Part shown: positions 4,006 to 21,802 of the stretch, piece after piece
Layout of the letters: each line of letters opens with the position of its first letter
How positions within the stretch are numbered: position 1 is the stretch's first letter
The notes under the pieces: generated by a model
What the model was told of the DNA's origin: nothing
Database searches by the model: none
Seen by the model: the letters and a program-made list of their open reading frames with translations, nothing else
Origin: a virus
IMG/VR virus record: IMGVR_UViG_3300017744_000164
Span: 1-23,369 of that record
Reading direction: 5' to 3' (one strand)
DNA: 23,369 nucleotides
Made by a program: the position numbers and the translations under genes

Positions 4006-4438
4006 TTATAAACCTCGGTTGTTCAAAGATTAGCCAATCCGTAGCTAAACAAACATAACAATCCAAGTGCTTTACATACATCCATCTGTCGACTTTCTGT
4101 GGCTCATCTTGTTGAGCGACATAAATTTTTGATCTATTATATTTAAAGAAAAGTACTGGCTTTTGGTCTCCTTTCTCAGCCTGTGATGTTGATTGCTCCC
4201 ACCATTTTATAAACTGGTTAGATGTTGTACTAATTACTTTGTCAGTAAAATGATTATCTTTATAATTTTTTACTTCTATACAGTAATTGTTCTCTTTATT
4301 GGGTACAAACAAATCCCCTTTCATAAACTCGAGTGCGCCTGACATTGGTACTCTCTCAAAATCTAAATTCGTATGTGTTTTTAGTAAGTCTCTTACTTGA
4401 CGCTCTCCTGTAGCGCCTTTCGCTCTTGGGTCTACCAT
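3998..4438 (-). CDS. PD-(D/E)XK nuclease, Hjc-like Holliday junction resolvase
   Basis: A 146-residue restriction-fold nuclease. Glu12 (ATGERQVRDLL), Asp42 (KGDLFVP) and Glu55-x-Lys57 (CIEVKNYK) give the E...GD...ExK pattern of archaeal-type Hjc resolvases, followed by a Ser/Gln-containing helix (STTSNQFIKWWEQ) as in that family. Probable role: cutting branched recombination intermediates so that replicated DNA can be resolved and packaged. It lies between groES (stop and start meet at 4438) and the flap nuclease, inside the recombination operon. Alternatives within the same fold, such as a VRR-NUC or RecU-type nuclease, cannot be excluded. Catalysis is well supported; junction specificity is inferred. 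Confidence 0.82.
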   Translation of the reverse strand: MVDPRAKGATGERQVRDLLKTHTNLDFERVPMSGALEFMKGDLFVPNKENNYCIEVKNYKDNHFTDKVISTTSNQFIKWWEQSTSQAEKGDQKPVLFFKYNRSKIYVAQQDEPQKVDRWMYVKHLDCYVCLATDWLIFEQPRFING

Positions 4439-4776
4439 TAGTCTTCCTCTTCTACGAATAGAATATCTTTCTCTGTTAATATTACATAAAAGTCATCATC
4501 GACTTTTAACTTTTTCTGTGCAGCGTGCCATTCAAAATACACTCTGTCTCCTATTTTTAATTCAAACGGAACTTTCACTCCAGTTCGAGTTAACTTTCCA
4601 TAGTCGCCTAAACCGACTACTTCACCACTATTATCAAGTCTCCGCGATGAATCAGGGATAATTATCCCTCCACTCGTCTCTTTTGACTCAACTTTCCCGC
4701 GTTTTACAATTAAATTATCTTTAATTGGTTTAGGTACGCTATCTACTTCTATATAATCACTTTTTACTTGCGCCAT
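4438..4776 (-). CDS. groES: GroES-like co-chaperonin
   Basis: A 112-residue cpn10-family protein. Seen: VPKPIKDNLIVKRGK at the N-terminus (the P..DR..V-type beta strand), a mobile-loop region ESKETSGGIIIPDSS at about residues 30-45 that would contact GroEL, GEVVGLGDYG in the middle, and a C-terminal IGDRVYFEWHAA...YVILTEKDILFVEE. Like T4 gp31 and cyanophage GroES proteins it probably caps host GroEL during folding of phage proteins; no GroEL gene lies in this window. It overlaps the upstream 76-residue gene by 20 bases. Its position inside a DNA metabolism operon, away from capsid genes, leaves the client protein open. Confidence 0.93.
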   Translation of the reverse strand: MAQVKSDYIEVDSVPKPIKDNLIVKRGKVESKETSGGIIIPDSSRRLDNSGEVVGLGDYGKLTRTGVKVPFELKIGDRVYFEWHAAQKKLKVDDDFYVILTEKDILFVEEED

Positions 4777-4987
4777 ATCTCTCCATTAAATAATCACTAA
4801 ACTTACCTGTGTATTCCGTATATGTAAGGTCTACACCTCCAAAGTAGGTTCCATGTTCGTCACAGTAGTCTAGCCACATACGACGACAAAAACCTTCAAA
4901 CTCATCTAAATCTGATGAGTGTATAAAATCTATTGTCTGTTTTGTTTTGTTCATTCTAAAGCATCTTCTCCTATTTCTTGCTGTCAT
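4757..4987 (-). CDS. Unknown small phage protein
   Basis: A 76-residue protein I do not recognise. It has a basic N-terminus, then a hydrophilic region with many Asp, Glu and Tyr residues (SDLDEFEGFC, WLDYCDEHGTYFG, YTEYTGKFSDYL). It has Cys residues but no zinc-finger spacing, and no membrane segment. The start at 4987 is in a TAATG overlap with the SbcC-like gene, an arrangement used repeatedly on this strand. A second in-frame ATG at 4954 would remove the basic first 11 residues, but its AGGAGA lies about 12 bases upstream. The gene sits between the SbcC-like gene and groES. Confidence 0.7.
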   Translation of the reverse strand: MTARNRRRCFRMNKTKQTIDFIHSSDLDEFEGFCRRMWLDYCDEHGTYFGGVDLTYTEYTGKFSDYLMERYGASKK

Positions 4988-6783
4988 TATTCCAATCTAC
5001 TTATATTATCAGTCTTTAAGACTTCAATCTTGTCTAAAAGAGGGTGTGTCCAGCCATGTGATACTATATATGTATTCAAACCTTCTTCTCTCAATAGAAC
5101 TTCTACTAGCTTTTCTCTTCCTTGTTCATCTAATACATTGATGACTTCATCAAGAAAAAGAACATTAATACGACTTTTCGATATACTACTCATCAATTTT
5201 CGTATAGCGATTAAAGTCGCTGTGTTAACTCGGGTCAATTCGCCACTACTGAGTGCAGTAATATCAATTATATTACCTTCATCTGTAACTTCTACATTCA
5301 ACTTATCGTTTGTTACTACGAAGTTGATGCTAAATCTTCCGTCACTTAATTCTGCTAAATAGTCGTTTGCTAGATCTTCTAACTCTTTCACCATATTTTC
5401 AATCTTATATGCAATAAGACCGTTGGTAGAAAACGCTTTTTTAAGGACTTCTATATGTCCTGCGGTTTCTTCGACTTTAGATAATTTTTCCGTAATTTCT
5501 TCAAGTTCTTTTTCAAACTCTGCTGTTTGCTCAAGGATGACTTGAATCCTTGTGTTTTTCTTTGTTCTTTCTTCATTTTGCTCTGCTATTTCCTGTATCT
5601 GCGATTTGGCGTGAGTGATACTATCTTTCAATTCTTTTATCTTTATAGCCAAATCACCTCCATCTAATGTGTTGCTAGGTAAGTCATTGTTTATTCTAGA
5701 ATGTAAATCTTCAAACTCTCGTTTCGTATTTACATACTCTTTATACTTTTGTTTCTCCTTTATCCTAGCTTGTATTTCTACGTCTAGTTCGCCTAGTCGG
5801 TTTCTGTGTTCTTCTACTTGTTCTTGTGCCTCTACTATCCATCTTTCAACAAAGTCTTCTGGAATAGACTGTTCACAAGTTGGGCAAGTGCCTTCTAAGT
5901 TTTTATACTTTTCTTCTTTCTTTTCCCACTCAGAAACATATCCGCCAAGTCTGCCTTTCTTAGAAATTAAGTCATCAAAAGACTCTGGCTCAGCTAACTT
6001 ACTTTGTAATAACTTCATATTTAGCTGGGAAAATAGTTGCTTGTATGTATTATTTTCGTTAATTTTTTGATTTTTTTCTGCGATATTTTCAAAATCTATA
6101 GATAAAGAACGCAATTCATTCTCATCTGTTTCCGAATATTCTGGTAATTTTATCATTGGAAGTATGATACTATCACTCAATTTATTTTCATTTAACCATT
6201 TTACAATAGTTTTTGACTTTCCATCTAGTTCTGCAAGCTGCTGACCTGAAGTCCTTGCAAGCTCTCGAAAAACGTCATAGTAAGCGACATAATCTTCCAA
6301 GTTTAACAAGTCTATCAAAAACTTTTTTCTATTAGCGTCTGTTGCTGTTAAAAACTGCAAAGATGCATTTGTATTTTGATAAACAAGTTGGGTAAATGTT
6401 TTAAAGTCCAGACCCAATATCTGCTCGACTGTTTTATATGTGTTAGTTGCAGTATGACTACTAATATCTTCGTCACCTTCAAATAACTTAACTTTTATAC
6501 TACCTCTACTTCTGCGTACATCTATCTCATAGTTTGTATCTTCTACAGCAAAAGTAAGGTTTATATTATATCCTGCATTTACAAATCTATTTTGTATATC
6601 CGCTTTTTTGATACCTTTACTATTCTTGTTGTATAAGGCTTCTTCGATAATAAGTGGAATGGAAGACTTGCCCATGCCATTGGTACCCACCAATTGAGTG
6701 AGAGTACTATTGTTAAGATTAATATTGTTGTCTTTTCCATAGCTAAAGCAGTTATCCCACTTCAGCGTTTTTAGAGTTATCAT
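4987..6783 (-). CDS. SbcC/Rad50-like recombination nuclease ATPase subunit (T4 gp46 / T5 D13 type)
   Basis: A 598-residue SMC-like ATPase, partner of the SbcD-like nuclease encoded just upstream. Order of parts: Walker A GTNGMGKSS (residues 33-41), a long coiled coil from about 200, a zinc hook CPTC with Cys300 and Cys303, the returning coiled coil, an ABC signature LSSGELTRV, and Walker B VLFLDEVINVLD near the C-terminus. It would form a dimer tethered by the hook and process DNA ends for recombination-dependent replication. It is far shorter than cellular SbcC and near the size of T4 gp46, with short coils. It overlaps the SbcD-like gene by 32 bases, which supports a fixed subunit ratio. 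Confidence 0.96.
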   Translation of the reverse strand: MITLKTLKWDNCFSYGKDNNINLNNSTLTQLVGTNGMGKSSIPLIIEEALYNKNSKGIKKADIQNRFVNAGYNINLTFAVEDTNYEIDVRRSRGSIKVKLFEGDEDISSHTATNTYKTVEQILGLDFKTFTQLVYQNTNASLQFLTATDANRKKFLIDLLNLEDYVAYYDVFRELARTSGQQLAELDGKSKTIVKWLNENKLSDSIILPMIKLPEYSETDENELRSLSIDFENIAEKNQKINENNTYKQLFSQLNMKLLQSKLAEPESFDDLISKKGRLGGYVSEWEKKEEKYKNLEGTCPTCEQSIPEDFVERWIVEAQEQVEEHRNRLGELDVEIQARIKEKQKYKEYVNTKREFEDLHSRINNDLPSNTLDGGDLAIKIKELKDSITHAKSQIQEIAEQNEERTKKNTRIQVILEQTAEFEKELEEITEKLSKVEETAGHIEVLKKAFSTNGLIAYKIENMVKELEDLANDYLAELSDGRFSINFVVTNDKLNVEVTDEGNIIDITALSSGELTRVNTATLIAIRKLMSSISKSRINVLFLDEVINVLDEQGREKLVEVLLREEGLNTYIVSHGWTHPLLDKIEVLKTDNISRLE

Positions 6784-7708
6784 GAAATATTCCTAAAATG
6801 TTTGTTACTGTTTCTTCCTTTAATTCCAGAATATAACTTAGATATTCTGCTAGCTCATCTTCCATAGACATATCTGCGTCTAATATAAGAGTTGCTTCTG
6901 TTTTTCTTTTGACTACTTTTTTATCTAGTAGTTCTGAGTTCTTTATAAGTGAAAGATCGGCGACATCCCCCTCTAGCTCATAGATCGTATAGTCGTATGT
7001 AGTTGGGATCATGGCGTTCGGGTCTGTCACCGTCTTTCGTATTAACTGGGGTAGTTTGAACTCTTTCCACTCCCACTCCCAACTATCTTCATCAATTAAT
7101 AAATATCCTGTTTGCACTTTTGTTCTGTGAAACTGGGTAGACATCGGACTACCTGGATATACAATATTTAATTGAGTATTAGAGTGACTATGTAAATCTC
7201 CTGCAAACACAATCGGAAACTGTGCTAACTTATTCAAGTCTATTTCAGGAGATACATGAGGTGGTATAGAACCTCTCACATGAGTGAATAGAGGTTTTCT
7301 TATATCTAAGTCCAATACTGGATTCCATTTTCTATGTAAATAACAATACGGTAATATAGTGTATTGTTCTGTTACTGTTATTTCATCAATGACAGTAACT
7401 AAAGGGTTTAATCTTTGAGTCGCAGATTTTAATTGAGTAAAGAATGTTTTATTCTTTTTAGTAGCTTCGTGGTTTCCATCAAAAATAATTGTTGGAATTG
7501 TAACTCCACTAATAAAGTCGAAATATAACTCTAACTCAGGCATTGAAGGGAGTCTATCAAATAAGTCTCCCCCAATGATATGCAGATCAACATCTTTCTC
7601 AAGCTCTTTAATCTGATCAAAAAACTCACGATATCTGTTTGTAGCCCATTCTACGGGTACATTCTTTTGTCCTAGTTTTATATGCCAATCTGCTGTAAAT
7701 AAAATCAT
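6752..7708 (-). CDS. SbcD/Mre11-like recombination nuclease subunit (T4 gp47 / T5 D12 type)
   Basis: A 318-residue calcineurin-like metallophosphoesterase. Metal-binding motifs appear in order: ADWH (Asp7, His9), GGDLFD (Asp48, Asp51), DGNHE (Asn79, His80), a His in LFTHVRG, and GDLHSHS. This is the Mre11/SbcD set. The C-terminal part with alternating Glu/Lys helices would form the capping and Rad50-binding region. It works with the following SbcC-like ATPase as a double-strand end nuclease. The ATG overlaps the TGA of the peroxiredoxin gene in an ATGA junction. Confidence 0.95.
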   Translation of the reverse strand: MILFTADWHIKLGQKNVPVEWATNRYREFFDQIKELEKDVDLHIIGGDLFDRLPSMPELELYFDFISGVTIPTIIFDGNHEATKKNKTFFTQLKSATQRLNPLVTVIDEITVTEQYTILPYCYLHRKWNPVLDLDIRKPLFTHVRGSIPPHVSPEIDLNKLAQFPIVFAGDLHSHSNTQLNIVYPGSPMSTQFHRTKVQTGYLLIDEDSWEWEWKEFKLPQLIRKTVTDPNAMIPTTYDYTIYELEGDVADLSLIKNSELLDKKVVKRKTEATLILDADMSMEDELAEYLSYILELKEETVTNILGIFHDNSKNAEVG

Positions 7709-8214
7709 GCTACGAAATCATCTCCTAGTTGCCAACTGCAACCTGTTAAACCGCCCGCTTGAAGTGCCGCAAGAGTTCTTTTTATCTCTTTTGCACTTCT
7801 GCCTGTATCTAATGCATTTATTGATACATGCTGCACTATATTATTCGGGTCTATAATATAGGTTGCTCTATAATGAACACCTTCTTCTTCACTTACTATT
7901 CCTAGTTCATAGCCTAAGGCCATGCCTGAATCTGCTGCAAGTGTGTGATCTATATCTCTGATAAGGTCACTATCTTGTTTCCAAGCAAGTTTGCAAAACT
8001 CATTGTCTCCACTCACTCCGATTATTTGAGCAGCACTTGATAGTTCATCAAAAGCTGCAATCTCTGTAGGACATATAAATGTAAAGTCTTTTGGATAAAA
8101 GTATACTATAGTCCACTCAGAATCAATATCGTTTTGAGTTATTGAGCCTAATGAATTATCGCTTTCGCAAGTGTTCATTTTAAACTCAGGAAACTCTTGT
8201 CCTACAACTACCAT
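7705..8214 (-). CDS. Peroxiredoxin (AhpC/TSA family, 2-Cys type)
   Basis: A 169-residue thioredoxin-fold peroxidase that would reduce hydrogen peroxide and organic peroxides. The active site FYPKDFTFICPTE holds the family's P-x3-T-x2-C motif, with peroxidatic Cys48 and Thr45. A second cysteine, Cys159 in GLTGCSW near the C-terminus, is placed as a resolving cysteine. The conserved YRATYIID strand is also present. It is full length and looks intact. It sits between ssb (7-base overlap) and the SbcD-like gene (ATGA overlap), so it is co-expressed with DNA repair functions. GGAG lies about seven bases before the ATG. This is an uncommon gene in a phage; antioxidant protection of infected cells or of phage nucleases is an inference. 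Confidence 0.93.
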   Translation of the reverse strand: MVVVGQEFPEFKMNTCESDNSLGSITQNDIDSEWTIVYFYPKDFTFICPTEIAAFDELSSAAQIIGVSGDNEFCKLAWKQDSDLIRDIDHTLAADSGMALGYELGIVSEEEGVHYRATYIIDPNNIVQHVSINALDTGRSAKEIKRTLAALQAGGLTGCSWQLGDDFVA

Positions 8215-8852
8215 TTTTGTTCTCCATCTGAAAATTCAGAGGCAACTTCTGCATCAGGAGACTCATTGCTACCTGATCTAACTCTATCAAGAAGTTCTTT
8301 TTGAGCATCTGCGCTTGGTCTAGGAAGTACTTCATCCATAGACTTCAAGCCTTCTATCAACTCTTTTTCCGACTCATCTAATGCTCTAGTTTTACATCTA
8401 AGTACTTGTAGTTGGTACTCGACGTTGAAAGCCATTGGTCCAGTCTTAACTCTTTTAAAGTGAACGTCCCATCCTGTTTCAGGATCTGTAGGGTCGCCGA
8501 GGTCTTCAGCAGCAAGCATTACTTGCTCCAGTAGTTTTTTCTTTAAGTTGAGGACTTTGACTTGACTATCTTTTGGGTCAATACATTGTATTGCATATGA
8601 CCAACCACATTTCATTTCTGGGTGGTAGTCTTTTACCCAATCTTTTTCTTTGTTGTCAAAAGATTCTGTAGAACGATTGAAGGAAAGACACTCCATAGGA
8701 ATGTTCTTTGCGTTCTCACCTTTTATCCAATATACGTATCTAGGAAGGATATCTCCTACCATTCTTACGACGTTATCACCGTCTTGATATTGAAACTGAT
8801 TTATGGAAGACTTTTTAGCCTTACCTTCTAATTGTGCAAATTTTAATGCCAT
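8208..8852 (-). CDS. Single-stranded DNA-binding protein (gp32-like)
   Basis: A 214-residue protein with an OB-fold-like middle (VVRMVGDILPRYVYWIKG to VEYQLQVLRC) rich in aromatic residues, followed by a charged region and a C-terminal tail rich in Glu, Asp and Ser (ESPDAEVASEFSDGEQKW) typical of phage SSBs that recruit partners through an acidic tail. It resembles the T4 gp32-type SSBs of marine phages, but the Cys/His zinc set of T4 gp32 is not obvious. AAGGAG lies nine bases before the ATG. It is the second gene behind the promoter at 9256-9293, ahead of the recombination nuclease genes. SSB function rests on layout and context more than on a unique motif. Confidence 0.8.
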   Translation of the reverse strand: MALKFAQLEGKAKKSSINQFQYQDGDNVVRMVGDILPRYVYWIKGENAKNIPMECLSFNRSTESFDNKEKDWVKDYHPEMKCGWSYAIQCIDPKDSQVKVLNLKKKLLEQVMLAAEDLGDPTDPETGWDVHFKRVKTGPMAFNVEYQLQVLRCKTRALDESEKELIEGLKSMDEVLPRPSADAQKELLDRVRSGSNESPDAEVASEFSDGEQKW

Positions 8853-16192: not shown

Positions 16193-16918
16193 TTAGCTGG
16201 ATGCTTTTTCTTTTCTTGCCGCACCATCATAGTCTGCGCACGCAAGACCTCTTCTGGTTAGCATTGTTTTCACACCTCTGACAGTTTTGCCGATTTCCTC
16301 AGCAATCTGATCAACTGTGTGATCCGAGATATCCCCTAGCGCAGTAAGTGCATCTACTTTAGAAGCAGCTGTACTTTCTCTCTGCGAAGGAATAGCATCT
16401 ATCTCACCTGTTCTCAGGAAAGAAAGAGCTTTACCTCTGATTGAATTGACGGGCTTGCCAAGAGCATCAGCGATGTCTTCAACAAACGCACCGTCACCTA
16501 CCATTGTTAAGAAGGTAGCTTCTTCAGATTCAGAATAAGTTCTGACTGAAGCAGGCTTCTCAGTAGGTTTAACATGATCAGTCAATTCCATAGAAAGGAT
16601 CTTTCCTTGAATTGACTTAGCGCCATATTTTCCGCCTTCAAAGGCGTTTGCAATGTCTGCATATGTGTAGTTACCAGAGTTATCTGATACAAATGCTGAT
16701 AAAGTTGCTTCCTCCTGTTCAGTAAATGTTCTAGTAGAAACTGAAGATGCGAGTTCAACCTCGAATCCCATTTTTCTTAACTTAGAACTAACTGATCTAG
16801 GAGATGTTTCAAGCTGGTCAGCTGCTTCTGCAACTGTTGCTTGAGATACGGGTGATTCCCCGCCTACGAACTCTGTTAATTCTTGAGTTCGTTCTTCTGT
16901 CCACTTAGGTACTGCCAT
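16193..16918 (-). CDS. DNA-binding protein with four Myb/SANT-like helix-turn-helix repeats
   Basis: A 241-residue protein made of four related units at about residues 6-55, 62-115, 125-173 and 185-228. Each has an acidic first helix (WTEER.., FTEQEEATL, YSESEEATF), then a helix-turn-helix of the form (I/A)A..LG....S(V/I)..K (QLETSPRSVSSKLRK, ADIANAF...SIQGK, DIADALGKPVNSIRGK, QIAEEIGKTVRGVKTMLTRRG). This suggests binding to repeated or extended DNA sites. The fourth unit closely matches the protein at 19788-20225. ATG 16918 was chosen because GGAG lies eight bases upstream; an upstream in-frame TTG adds four residues. The gene overlaps ligB by 14 bases and ends at an intrinsic terminator. 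Role, such as transcription control or origin binding, is unknown. Confidence 0.85.
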   Translation of the reverse strand: MAVPKWTEERTQELTEFVGGESPVSQATVAEAADQLETSPRSVSSKLRKMGFEVELASSVSTRTFTEQEEATLSAFVSDNSGNYTYADIANAFEGGKYGAKSIQGKILSMELTDHVKPTEKPASVRTYSESEEATFLTMVGDGAFVEDIADALGKPVNSIRGKALSFLRTGEIDAIPSQRESTAASKVDALTALGDISDHTVDQIAEEIGKTVRGVKTMLTRRGLACADYDGAARKEKASS

Positions 16919-17684
16919 TATTTTCTCCAATTAGCTGTTTTATATTTGTTACTATTTTTATTCCTTTTGATTCTGCTGACTTTGTCTTACTTGAGGCTGT
17001 GCCACTTTCATTAATTAGGATGGTTACATCTTTTGTTAAAGTATCTTTTACTCGATATCCATATCTCTCTAATTCTTTCTTTGCGTCTGCTTTCGTTTTA
17101 TATGAAGTCAAGCGTCCCGAGATACAAACTACTTCGTTTATATCTACGACTGGTACTCCTTCGAAAATATCTGCTTTCCATGTGAAAGGTAAGTCTTTGT
17201 ATCCGTTTTTGTATGCTGTTTCATACCAACTACAGATATTAGTTGTAACTTTTGGACCTAACCCCGCTTCACTACATCTCTTCTCGGTTAATTCATCAAT
17301 GTGACTAATCGTATTGCATAATTTTTGAGAAGCTGTAGATCCAAAAAGTGGTATGGCAAAGGCTGGTAGTAACTCTTGAAGATTAGCATTTTTACTTAAT
17401 TCGATTTCATTTACTAACTTCGTTGCTAGTTTCTCTGAACCTAGCCTTTCCTCTATAAACTCGGGTGTCAACAGGTATATATCTTCTATATACTGTAAAT
17501 CAAGTTTTTCTATGGTCTTTGTTCCAAGACCTTTGATTCTAAGAGTTTTAGCAAAACCTTCTACAATCTTTGAATTCTTTGCTGGGCAACTTGGGTTGTT
17601 GCAATAAAGCTGATCATTTATCAACTTTAATGATGTGCCACACGAAGGGCATACATCAGGAATTTCTATTGCTTGTTGTTTCAT
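16905..17684 (-). CDS. ligB: NAD+-dependent DNA ligase, C-terminal subunit (zinc finger, HhH, BRCT)
   Basis: A 259-residue protein equal to the C-terminal half of bacterial LigA. Cys12, Cys15, Cys28 and Cys33 (CPSCGTSL, YCNNPSCPAK) form the zinc finger. Helix-hairpin-helix segments follow (LRIKGLGTKTIEKL, LLPAFAIPLFGSTASQKLC, GLGPKVTTNI). Residues from about 175 form a BRCT domain (VVCISGRLTSYKTKADAKKELERYG split by normal strands). It has no nucleotidyltransferase site and must work with the subunit encoded at 17740-18681, as coliphage T5 LigA/LigB do. It has its own promoter (17708-17745) and a leader of about 17 bases with AAGAG before ATG 17684. The split is not a recent frameshift, since a promoter and a new start separate the halves. 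Confidence 0.95.
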   Translation of the reverse strand: MKQQAIEIPDVCPSCGTSLKLINDQLYCNNPSCPAKNSKIVEGFAKTLRIKGLGTKTIEKLDLQYIEDIYLLTPEFIEERLGSEKLATKLVNEIELSKNANLQELLPAFAIPLFGSTASQKLCNTISHIDELTEKRCSEAGLGPKVTTNICSWYETAYKNGYKDLPFTWKADIFEGVPVVDINEVVCISGRLTSYKTKADAKKELERYGYRVKDTLTKDVTILINESGTASSKTKSAESKGIKIVTNIKQLIGENNGST

Positions 17685-17707
17685 CTACTCTTTTTATCAA
17701 TTATTAT

Positions 17708-17745
17708 ATTATACTAAATCTGACATCAAATGTCAAGATTTATTT
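17708..17745 (-). promoter_or_regulatory. Conserved phage promoter, copy 2 (ligB)
   Basis: Minus strand: AAATAAATC (17745-17737), TTGACA (17736-17731), 17-bp spacer, TATAAT (17713-17708). Predicted +1 is about 17701, giving a leader of about 17 bases before ligB. The upstream block overlaps the last codons of ligA. Confidence 0.9.
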
Positions 17746-18681
17746 TTCTGCAAGTCCTACAATTCTAGGAATTATTTCTCCTGACCTGATAACCTCTACC
17801 TTACAACCTATGTAAAGTCCGAGTGCTTCAATGTAAGACTTATTGTGTAGCGTTGCTCTACTAACTGTAGCCTCTCCTATTACACAAGGTTCTAGAATAG
17901 CTACTGGCGAGACCACTCCTGACTTTCCTACTTGCCATACGACATCTAGCAAAGTTGTGATAACACCTTCTTTCTGTTCTTTTAATGCAAATGCCCCTCT
18001 TGGGTGGTGAGCTGTATAACCCAGACTTTTAAATTGTTGGTTGTCATTGACTCTCCATACTGTACCATCGTGAGGAAATTGCGATAATCCCTCCTTCATT
18101 ACAGTACTGAATCCATGACGATCTAATAAGTCCATGTCTCCTGTCCACTTCTGCATAGGGCTAGGCTCTATACCATACGCTACAAAAAACAAGTCTCGGG
18201 AGAGAAACTCGGGAATATCTTTCAGGTTTAAAGCACCTGCAGCATAATTTCTCGAATTGGGTACGGATTTGGGAGCAACTACCTCCCCCGTGACTTGAAA
18301 AAGCTTAGACGTAATGTCTATCTTTTTAGGTATATTATTCCATGCAAGGAACTTATCTGTAATATCCAACCCTGTCTTCCCATCTCCTCGAGTAAGAACT
18401 TGTGAAAGCTCTCCCTCTACATACAGTAATGATACTGCTGATCCGTCTAATTTAGGTGTGACTACTACGTCCCCGTATGGAAGGGGATTTTTATCGTCCC
18501 CTTTAAAAACTTTCTGAAGTGAATACATAGGAAAAGCGTGTGGTGTTCTACCGCTAGGTGAACCAACTTTGGCATACTGAGCAATTTGTGCTAGTCTATC
18601 GAACTCTTCGTCTGATAGTGTTGGTATGCCTGCGTAGTAACCTTCGCTCGCTTTATCTAGTAACTTCGTTAAATTTTCCAT
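17740..18681 (-). CDS. ligA: NAD+-dependent DNA ligase, N-terminal subunit (adenylation and OB domains)
   Basis: A 313-residue protein equal to the N-terminal half of bacterial LigA. It starts with a short domain Ia-like region (YYAGIPTLSDEEFDRL, like YY..D.P...D.EYD.L), then the adenylation site TPKLDGSAVS with Lys77 as the AMP-accepting lysine, TRGDGKTG at about 97, NYAAGALNLKD and motif V WQVGKSGVVSPVA, followed by an OB fold (TVSRATLHN..., KVEVIRSGEIIPRIV). It ends before any zinc finger. ATG 18681 coincides with the predicted +1 of its own promoter and no in-frame ATG follows until codon 52, so the mRNA should be leaderless. Domain order matches the T5 LigA subunit. Confidence 0.95.
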   Translation of the reverse strand: MENLTKLLDKASEGYYAGIPTLSDEEFDRLAQIAQYAKVGSPSGRTPHAFPMYSLQKVFKGDDKNPLPYGDVVVTPKLDGSAVSLLYVEGELSQVLTRGDGKTGLDITDKFLAWNNIPKKIDITSKLFQVTGEVVAPKSVPNSRNYAAGALNLKDIPEFLSRDLFFVAYGIEPSPMQKWTGDMDLLDRHGFSTVMKEGLSQFPHDGTVWRVNDNQQFKSLGYTAHHPRGAFALKEQKEGVITTLLDVVWQVGKSGVVSPVAILEPCVIGEATVSRATLHNKSYIEALGLYIGCKVEVIRSGEIIPRIVGLAEK

Positions 18682-21091: not shown

Positions 21092-21802
21092 TCACTCGAA
21101 CGTTACTCCATATTCTTTTAAGTGCTCGAGACTTCCTAGACGATATGCAAGTGTATGGCTATTGAAACCTAGTTTCTTTCTACCAGTCCACCAACCTAAA
21201 GTCTTGATTGATTCATCATAGCTATGTAAGTTATAGTTATATACAGCATACATTTTTGCTCCATATTTCTTTTCGTAATTCAAAGTTTTAATTCCAGGCA
21301 TGGAATCTTGGTACTCTAAAGTCCACTCTCTTCCTATAACACATGGCATATGATATTGAGAGTTCCAAGCTATTTCTCCTTCTTGAAACTCCTCCTTTAT
21401 ACAAACATCAGGAAGTAAAACTTCCGATGCTTTCTCTTCTCCTACAGGTCGTCTAGGTACTCCAACTCTATCAATAATTCCCTTGACAAAAGCTGCTGAC
21501 CTGTATAATGTTTTTGCAATATCTGTGATACTATCTCCTTCGATATAATCTGTAATTGCTTGTTTGATCTCATGCTCTGCGGCTGGTTTGCCTTTATTTC
21601 TAGCTTTCCTACTAGCTATTCTGGTTTGCTCTGCATGAAACTCTTCTAATATATTGTTAAGTCTAGTCGTATTGTAACTAATTCTTAACATTTCGCAAGC
21701 TACTTTCTTTGTAGCTCCTTCCTCTAACGCTGCGATAACTCTTTTAATGTTCGCAGGACTTAAATCCTCATGACTTCTTGCTCTAATTCCTCTTTTTGCC
21801 AT
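21092..21802 (-). CDS. Helix-turn-helix DNA-binding protein, unknown role
   Basis: A 236-residue protein. The basic N-terminal half holds two helix-turn-helix-like units: NIKRVIAALEEGATKKVACE followed by MLRISYNTTRL (residues about 18-50), and AITDYIEGDSITDIAKTLYR with a following helix (about 85-112). Between them is a Lys/Arg-rich linker (RIASRKARNKGKP). The C-terminal half is rich in Tyr and Trp (IAWNSQYHMPCVIGREWTLEY, KYGAKMYAVYNYNLHSYDES, LGWWTGRKKLG) and looks like a separate beta-rich domain. It may be a phage transcription regulator or terminase-small-like DNA binder; I cannot decide. It starts two bases after the DUF3310-like stop, with only a weak GGA ribosome-binding site. Confidence 0.78.
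   Translation of the reverse strand: MAKRGIRARSHEDLSPANIKRVIAALEEGATKKVACEMLRISYNTTRLNNILEEFHAEQTRIASRKARNKGKPAAEHEIKQAITDYIEGDSITDIAKTLYRSAAFVKGIIDRVGVPRRPVGEEKASEVLLPDVCIKEEFQEGEIAWNSQYHMPCVIGREWTLEYQDSMPGIKTLNYEKKYGAKMYAVYNYNLHSYDESIKTLGWWTGRKKLGFNSHTLAYRLGSLEHLKEYGVTFE

Follow-up and report, generated by a model that had tools for sequence, protein, structure and literature searches.

What is a peroxiredoxin gene doing among the replication and repair genes of a phage, and does it belong there as a fixed member of the operon or as cargo? The window that raises this question (the whole stretch of DNA analysed, a 23,369-base IMG/VR virus record) covers the early genes of a T5-like phage. 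It carries genes for a split NAD-dependent ligase, primase, PolA, a helicase, ssb, sbcD, sbcC and a class I ribonucleotide reductase, and a DnaB-like helicase was assigned by eye and by its place. The gene order is that of the early region of T5-like (Demerecviridae-like) phages (ligase halves, dnaB, primase, polA, helicase, ssb, sbcD, sbcC, a D14-like gene and a flap nuclease), and the PolA is 42% identical to those of T5-like Aeromonas and Vibrio phages. The early genes of Vibrio phage Thalassa stand in the same order, and its NAD-dependent DNA ligase is likewise encoded in two genes (16905-18681 in the window), but the place of the peroxiredoxin gene (hereafter prx) is taken in Thalassa by an unrelated 125-aa gene (PHROG 15738).

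A first-pass annotation of this DNA had described prx as an intact, full-length peroxiredoxin gene overlapped on both sides by DNA repair genes, and gave no strand. Our reading confirms this and adds the strand (Table 1): on the minus strand lies the single complete open reading frame of the interval, the plus strand of 7705-8214 holding many stops. The ssb stop and the prx start overlap by 7 nt (8208-8214), and the prx stop and the sbcD start by 4 nt (ATGA, 7705-7708). The positions given earlier for the peroxidatic and the likely resolving cysteine are also right; to these we add Cys74 and Thr157, both discussed below. The same gene run includes a GroES-like protein at 4438-4776 (best E 3.5e-18, below all the NCBIfam cut-offs listed).

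Table 1. Coordinates in the window of prx, its neighbours and its two principal cysteine codons.
Feature	Position	Strand	Basis
prx (AhpC-type peroxiredoxin, 169 aa)	7705..8214	minus	ATG at 8214, TGA at 7705; translation, profiles, model
ssb (T5 D11-like single-strand DNA-binding protein), upstream of prx	8208..8852	minus	PHROG 1607, 1.1e-34
sbcD-like nuclease (T5 D12), downstream of prx	6752..7708	minus	PHROG 100, 2.5e-39
sbcC-like ATPase (T5 D13), same gene run as prx	4987..6783	minus	PHROG 77, 2.2e-96
Cys48 codon (peroxidatic; motif FTFICPTE)	8071..8073	minus	position from translation
Cys159 codon (likely resolving; motif GGLTGCSW)	7738..7740	minus	position from translation

The family of the protein is clear. 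It scores 84.3 bits against Pfam AhpC-TSA (PF00578, cut-off 26; 84.6 bits in a second scan) and its best solved relative is AhpC of Mycobacterium tuberculosis (Mtb; 2bmx, E 2.8e-30), so that a chance match can be excluded. The NCBIfam equivalog for AhpC (TIGR03137) is missed by far, with 110.4 bits against a cut-off of 272, which counts against the reading we favour below, and the score for the PrxU equivalog (NF040737, 87.7 bits) likewise lies under its cut-off of 270. An AlphaFold2 model of the monomer, built on 26 aligned sequences (pLDDT 83.4, pTM 0.81), again returned 2bmx as the first-ranked Foldseek match (E 8.5e-18, TM 0.84), and VIA-align gave Z values of about 20-21 to typical 2-Cys Prx/AhpC chains. 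The peroxidatic motif P-x3-T-x2-C together with a catalytic Arg is the signature of peroxiredoxins, and P41, T45, C48, R116 and R139 are invariant in all 160 distinct phage proteins that we compared. The earlier naming of the product as a full-length 2-Cys peroxiredoxin is supported, its activity being a prediction.

The 160 proteins derive from 224 loci, 64 of them repeats; all 224 are full length and none was removed for length, and the set comes from lists of the best 80 matches in which some contigs were fetched repeatedly, so it is no random sample. Besides Cys48, Arg116, Arg139 and Thr45, the residues Cys159, Thr157, Trp161 and Glu51 occur in 160/160 and Cys74 in 158/160, while Cys48, Cys74 and Cys159 are found together in all 61 distinct proteins of the first IMG/VR set (best 80 of at least 598 relatives). 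A selenocysteine variant was considered and set aside, position 48 being Cys throughout the 160, a set that holds no early-stop frames and from which a Sec form might have escaped retrieval. Cys96 and Cys114 occur together in 121 of the 160 proteins; the window has Ser96 and His114 (7927-7929 and 7873-7875), a pair shared by 9 of them.

Among the best 80 of at least 558 cellular loci, the equivalent of Cys159 is present in all 80, and 77 also have a cysteine at 157, giving the C-x-C of Mtb AhpC (Cys174 and Cys176); Cys74 is found in 27. Every phage protein has threonine at the first of these two positions and cysteine at the second. Judged by sequence, then, the phage form has lost the first cysteine of the resolving pair of its kin and kept the second. 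In AhpC of B. thailandensis, Cys171 and Cys173 are reported both to resolve and to be interchangeable, with Cys173 mattering more in complementation, and in MtbAhpC Cys176 is reported to substitute for Cys174 only to some extent, which counts against our preferred reading (available part of PMC6626918, the latter statement citing Koshkin 2004). Because the phage enzyme retains the equivalent of Cys173/176, a disulfide between Cys48 and Cys159 would by analogy be our best guess, and the resolving role proposed for Cys159 in the first-pass annotation is plausible on the same footing. The model is least certain round Cys159, with pLDDT below 50 at 157-160, and so gives the pairing of the two cysteines no structural support.

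A resolved disulfide needs a reductant, and the first-pass annotation had called for a search for the electron donor. None of the genes looked for (thioredoxin, glutaredoxin, AhpD-like, or Pyr_redox_2, a pyridine-nucleotide reductase) was found in the 23-kb window record. Across the wider set of records, many of them fragments, glutaredoxin occurs in 6 of 17 with prx against 3 of 6 without it (one of these three below the family cut-off), and the single thioredoxin gene among 23 records is in one that lacks prx; a search of 13 phage records, which may all be fragments, gave no AhpD-like and no Pyr_redox_2 gene. Neither glutaredoxin nor thioredoxin of the phage is associated with prx in these records, and we rejected both as a dedicated donor. 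As the window record holds no donor gene and glutaredoxin is no commoner where prx is present, the host most likely supplies the electrons, and an AhpD-like partner may come from the host as well. The co-occurrence with glutaredoxin on 6 of 17 contigs could also be taken, together with the loss of the first resolving cysteine in every phage protein, to mean that Cys159 does not resolve at all and that the enzyme is effectively a 1-Cys peroxidase, its Cys48 reduced directly by glutaredoxin, glutathione or another small thiol. We regard this as unlikely, since Cys159 and Trp161 are invariant and the equivalent cysteine is described as resolving in the available part of the B. thailandensis study (PMC6626918).

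How unusual such a gene is depends on where one looks. The description of prx as an unusual function in a phage is borne out among sequenced isolates, where 17 of 50,697 INPHARED records match, all at 34% identity or less, and fails for uncultured phages, at least 598 relatives being present in IMG/VR. Two of the 17 isolate records were opened, those of Microcystis phage MaAM05 (MW495066.1) and Acinetobacter phage MD-2021a (CAKLQH020000032.1). Their AhpC/PrxU proteins belong to the AhpC/TSA family and are 30-33% identical to prx, and the neighbours (rplA, rplK, nusG, secE, ilvD or hrpA) identify the DNA as bacterial chromosome; by their look, these are contaminated or mislabelled assemblies. 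That some public 'phage' records with ahpC or prxU are in fact bacterial chromosome raises the suspicion that the window, too, is a metagenome mis-assembly or holds a misplaced bacterial gene. The chance of this is negligible: the same gene order recurs in 101 of 179 prx variants, prx is 100% identical in two loci (L001 and L002), and the nearest cellular copies, among the best 80 of at least 558 loci, reach no more than 52%.

The first-pass annotation had also proposed a phylogeny to trace the bacterial donor of the gene. In a search of one genome per species across 84,980 species, from which the best 80 of at least 558 loci were kept, the best match was a chromosomal copy at 52% (L083, from the metagenome-assembled genome Gammaproteobacteria bacterium TMED78) and the rest were at 44% or less; no recent bacterial donor was found among these 80. 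A tree of 81 rows, computed by a quick method from 36 phage rows (61 before near-copies were removed) and 45 cellular ones (the first in the list of 80), separates the phage rows together with L083, itself on a long branch, from the 44 other cellular rows with an SH-aLRT of 100. In the segments compared, an insert of about five residues follows helix 2 of the cellular proteins, and neither the phage proteins nor L083 have it. L083 is the only one of the best 80 cellular relatives with the phage form of the protein: it shares Thr157 and Cys159 as well as the missing insert, and is 62% identical to one phage row (L039). Its contig differs from those of the phages: inspection of the translations by eye gave purA, hflC, hflK, hflX, hfq and miaA-like genes, and it is these neighbours that make L083 a chromosomal gene and no phage. 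The direction of transfer could be either way. As the tree has it, phage prx is a distinct branch of the AhpC peroxiredoxins.

Where do phages keep this gene? Across 179 distinct prx DNA variants, taken from the best-80 IMG/VR lists, the T5-like order ssb-prx-sbcD is found in 101, with one of these two sides in 8 more. In the others, prx stands before gp33-gp59-gp32 (21), after a phage exonuclease of PHROG 298 (17), before UvsX, in many cases separated from it by an S21 gene (15), after hsp20 (10) or in other contexts (7); the neighbourhoods with uvsX, gp33-gp59-gp32, exonuclease or hsp20 are those of T4-like phages. Even the 'other' class includes a locus with PolA before prx and an exonuclease after it (L337) and one followed within 1 kb by an SbcD/gp47-like gene (L301), along with one that has a PAPS reductase near by (L366). 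Given the contexts without a replication gene (10/179 hsp20, 7/179 other) and the presence of other cargo at the ssb-sbcD junction, this neighbourhood alone is no proof of a role in replication. The ten variants next to hsp20, and the GroES-like gene in the window, might instead hint that the protein works as a holdase or chaperone, or as a redox sensor, rather than as a peroxidase, and hyperoxidised rings of 2-Cys peroxiredoxins do have such roles. This strikes us as very improbable, all the catalytic residues including the resolving cysteine being kept and no chaperone-specific feature having been found.

The repeated neighbourhood could also be read more strictly, with prx as part of the replication and recombination machine. 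At least 144 of the 160 distinct proteins share a conserved, disordered tail, [DE][DEQN][FY]V[AGV]-COOH, similar to the acidic-Phe motif in which T5-like SSBs mostly end, [DE]EF[DN][IV][SGK]-COOH. Such a tail might dock prx on the partners of SSB and so bring peroxide protection to the fork, and the recurrence of prx beside SSB, UvsX, gp33-gp59-gp32, PolA/exonuclease and SbcD/gp47 would fit. The SSB of the window itself ends in EQKW, however, as do those of its nearest relatives or similarly; the tails of T4-like gp32 are unlike that of prx; and a cellular AhpC (L088) ends in GDEFIKV without any link to SSB. We think this reading very improbable.

The overlaps with ssb and sbcD had been taken earlier to mean that prx is no stray cargo gene. 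An independent sample of 80 T5-like loci picked by sbcD regardless of prx, of which 4 had too little upstream sequence and 76 were usable, speaks against that reasoning. Prx lies between ssb and sbcD in 18 of the 76 and is absent there from 58, so the overlap does not prove that the gene is a fixed part of the operon. At 56 of the 58 junctions without prx, ssb and sbcD are at most 44 nt apart or overlap, and the other two (L202 and L218) hold another gene; of the 20 junctions that are occupied, prx thus accounts for 18. Four loci (L165, L166, L168 and L169) have an ssb 85-88% identical to that of the window, yet no prx at the junction. In L165 the junction holds GAACTTCATAG, resembling the end of prx in L007 (AACTTCGTAG); we discarded this as a scar of gene loss, the match being too short to count on. 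When 33 records lacking prx at the junction, all of them fragments, were searched in full, one (L174) proved to have it elsewhere, next to a homolog, by eye, of window gene 21092-21802. The T5-like contig of L174 (L247:2508-7545) encodes an ammonium transporter (PF00909, 3e-89), an Fe-S biosynthesis protein (PF01521), Hsp20 and glutaredoxin along with prx.

Alleles of prx are also swapped. In the 22 T5-like loci compared, its identity is often at odds with that of both neighbours. Between the window and L007, ssb, prx and sbcD are 92%, 69% and 92% identical with dS of 0.80, 2.74 and 0.93; the corresponding identities are 86/62/87 between L046 and L070 and 80/85/81 between L046 and L068. The raised synonymous distance of prx points to a different allele and not only to faster change of the protein. 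In the nine pairs run, dN/dS of prx was 0.087-0.177, indicating purifying selection, and lay above that of ssb and sbcD in close pairs (in this set one sbcD value was lost to saturation and one ssb row runs two codons too far). On the sequence evidence, prx is an optional cassette whose alleles are exchanged between phages. It is nonetheless not random cargo, as its share of the occupied junctions, the purifying selection and the phage clade attest.

Other genes use the same junction. A gene for a c-type cytochrome lies between prx and sbcD in one T5-like contig (L017:6501-6935; PF00034, 6.5e-8; CAACH motif and signal-like N-terminus), and L018-L021 probably have it at the same place, to judge from an equal gap rather than from translations. 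CoiA-like nuclease genes are found at the junction with or without prx (L075:3298-3990, L241:1812-2504 and L218:1833-2504), the call for L241 coming from a near-identical translation and not from a profile scan. This other traffic, with cytochrome c and CoiA-like nucleases among its members, together with the prx genes beside hsp20 and at a second site in one T5-like contig, lends some weight to the view that prx is a general auxiliary peroxidase that keeps the infected cell in order, its location reflecting hot spots for early accessory genes and no replication role. The enzyme chemistry would be the same as in the reading we prefer, and only the thing protected would differ. We hold it a real possibility, if a somewhat doubtful one: prx dominates the occupied junctions, and at least three different T4-like replication or recombination neighbourhoods hold it, a pattern not expected of a single hot spot.

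It is probable, in our judgement, that prx is a phage-specific AhpC/Prx1-type thiol peroxidase carried as an optional cassette that circulates among T5-like and T4-like phages, mostly beside ssDNA-binding, recombination and replication genes and thus made together with them. Most likely it would act as a two-cysteine thiol peroxidase, produced early with the replication genes and reduced by host donors; early expression is likely because the gene sits among early replication genes. By homology, peroxide would oxidise Cys48 to a sulfenic acid, which Cys159 of the partner subunit would attack to form a disulfide, and this would be reduced by thioredoxin or glutaredoxin of the host or, in some phages, by the phage's own glutaredoxin. 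The benefit may be that peroxide levels stay low in the brief period when dNTPs are made and DNA is copied.

The peroxiredoxin enzyme itself is known; what is new here is the separate phage clade, the loss of the first resolving cysteine and the mobile cassette. We found no paper on a phage peroxiredoxin of the present kind in the literature searched, which for the most part did not include subscription journals and preprints; the accessible portion of PMC12542629 mentions ahpC among Microcystis virus genes, and the ahpC in that of PMC5931967 is the host's. This branch of AhpC, not seen among the sequenced isolates searched, is common in uncultured T5-like and T4-like phages. Since similar phages differ by the clean presence or absence of prx at one junction, they offer a natural comparison for asking whether peroxide limits phage DNA replication, and the phage enzyme, with a single resolving cysteine retained, is a naturally occurring test of which C-x-C half suffices. 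If the enzyme is active, the repertoire of auxiliary phage functions gains antioxidant defence.

Among known systems, the peroxiredoxin of an isolated phage, Synechococcus phage S-SCSM1 (BFVD A0A6M2ZI38), is of another type, with 16% identity and a TM of 0.62 to the prx model. Typical 2-Cys Prx1/AhpC enzymes (Salmonella AhpC, human Prx1-3) have the same fold, at the Z values given above, and the same catalytic motif, but are only 24-31% identical to phage prx, whose cysteines include one half of the Mtb-type C-x-C. It is the AhpC of Mtb and of alphaproteobacteria and Burkholderia (the AhpC-AhpD type) that gives the best sequence and Foldseek match. From these, phage prx differs in Thr157 for the first resolving cysteine, in having some five residues fewer after helix 2, in a nearly invariant Cys74, in GGLTGC for DELCPC and in a shortened tail; the 13 phage records searched, which may all be fragments, gave no AhpD-like gene. 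It shares with them the FTF-CPTE active site, the DNEF.KLAW helix, Arg116 and Arg139, and its Cys159 aligns with the second cysteine of their C-terminal C-x-C.
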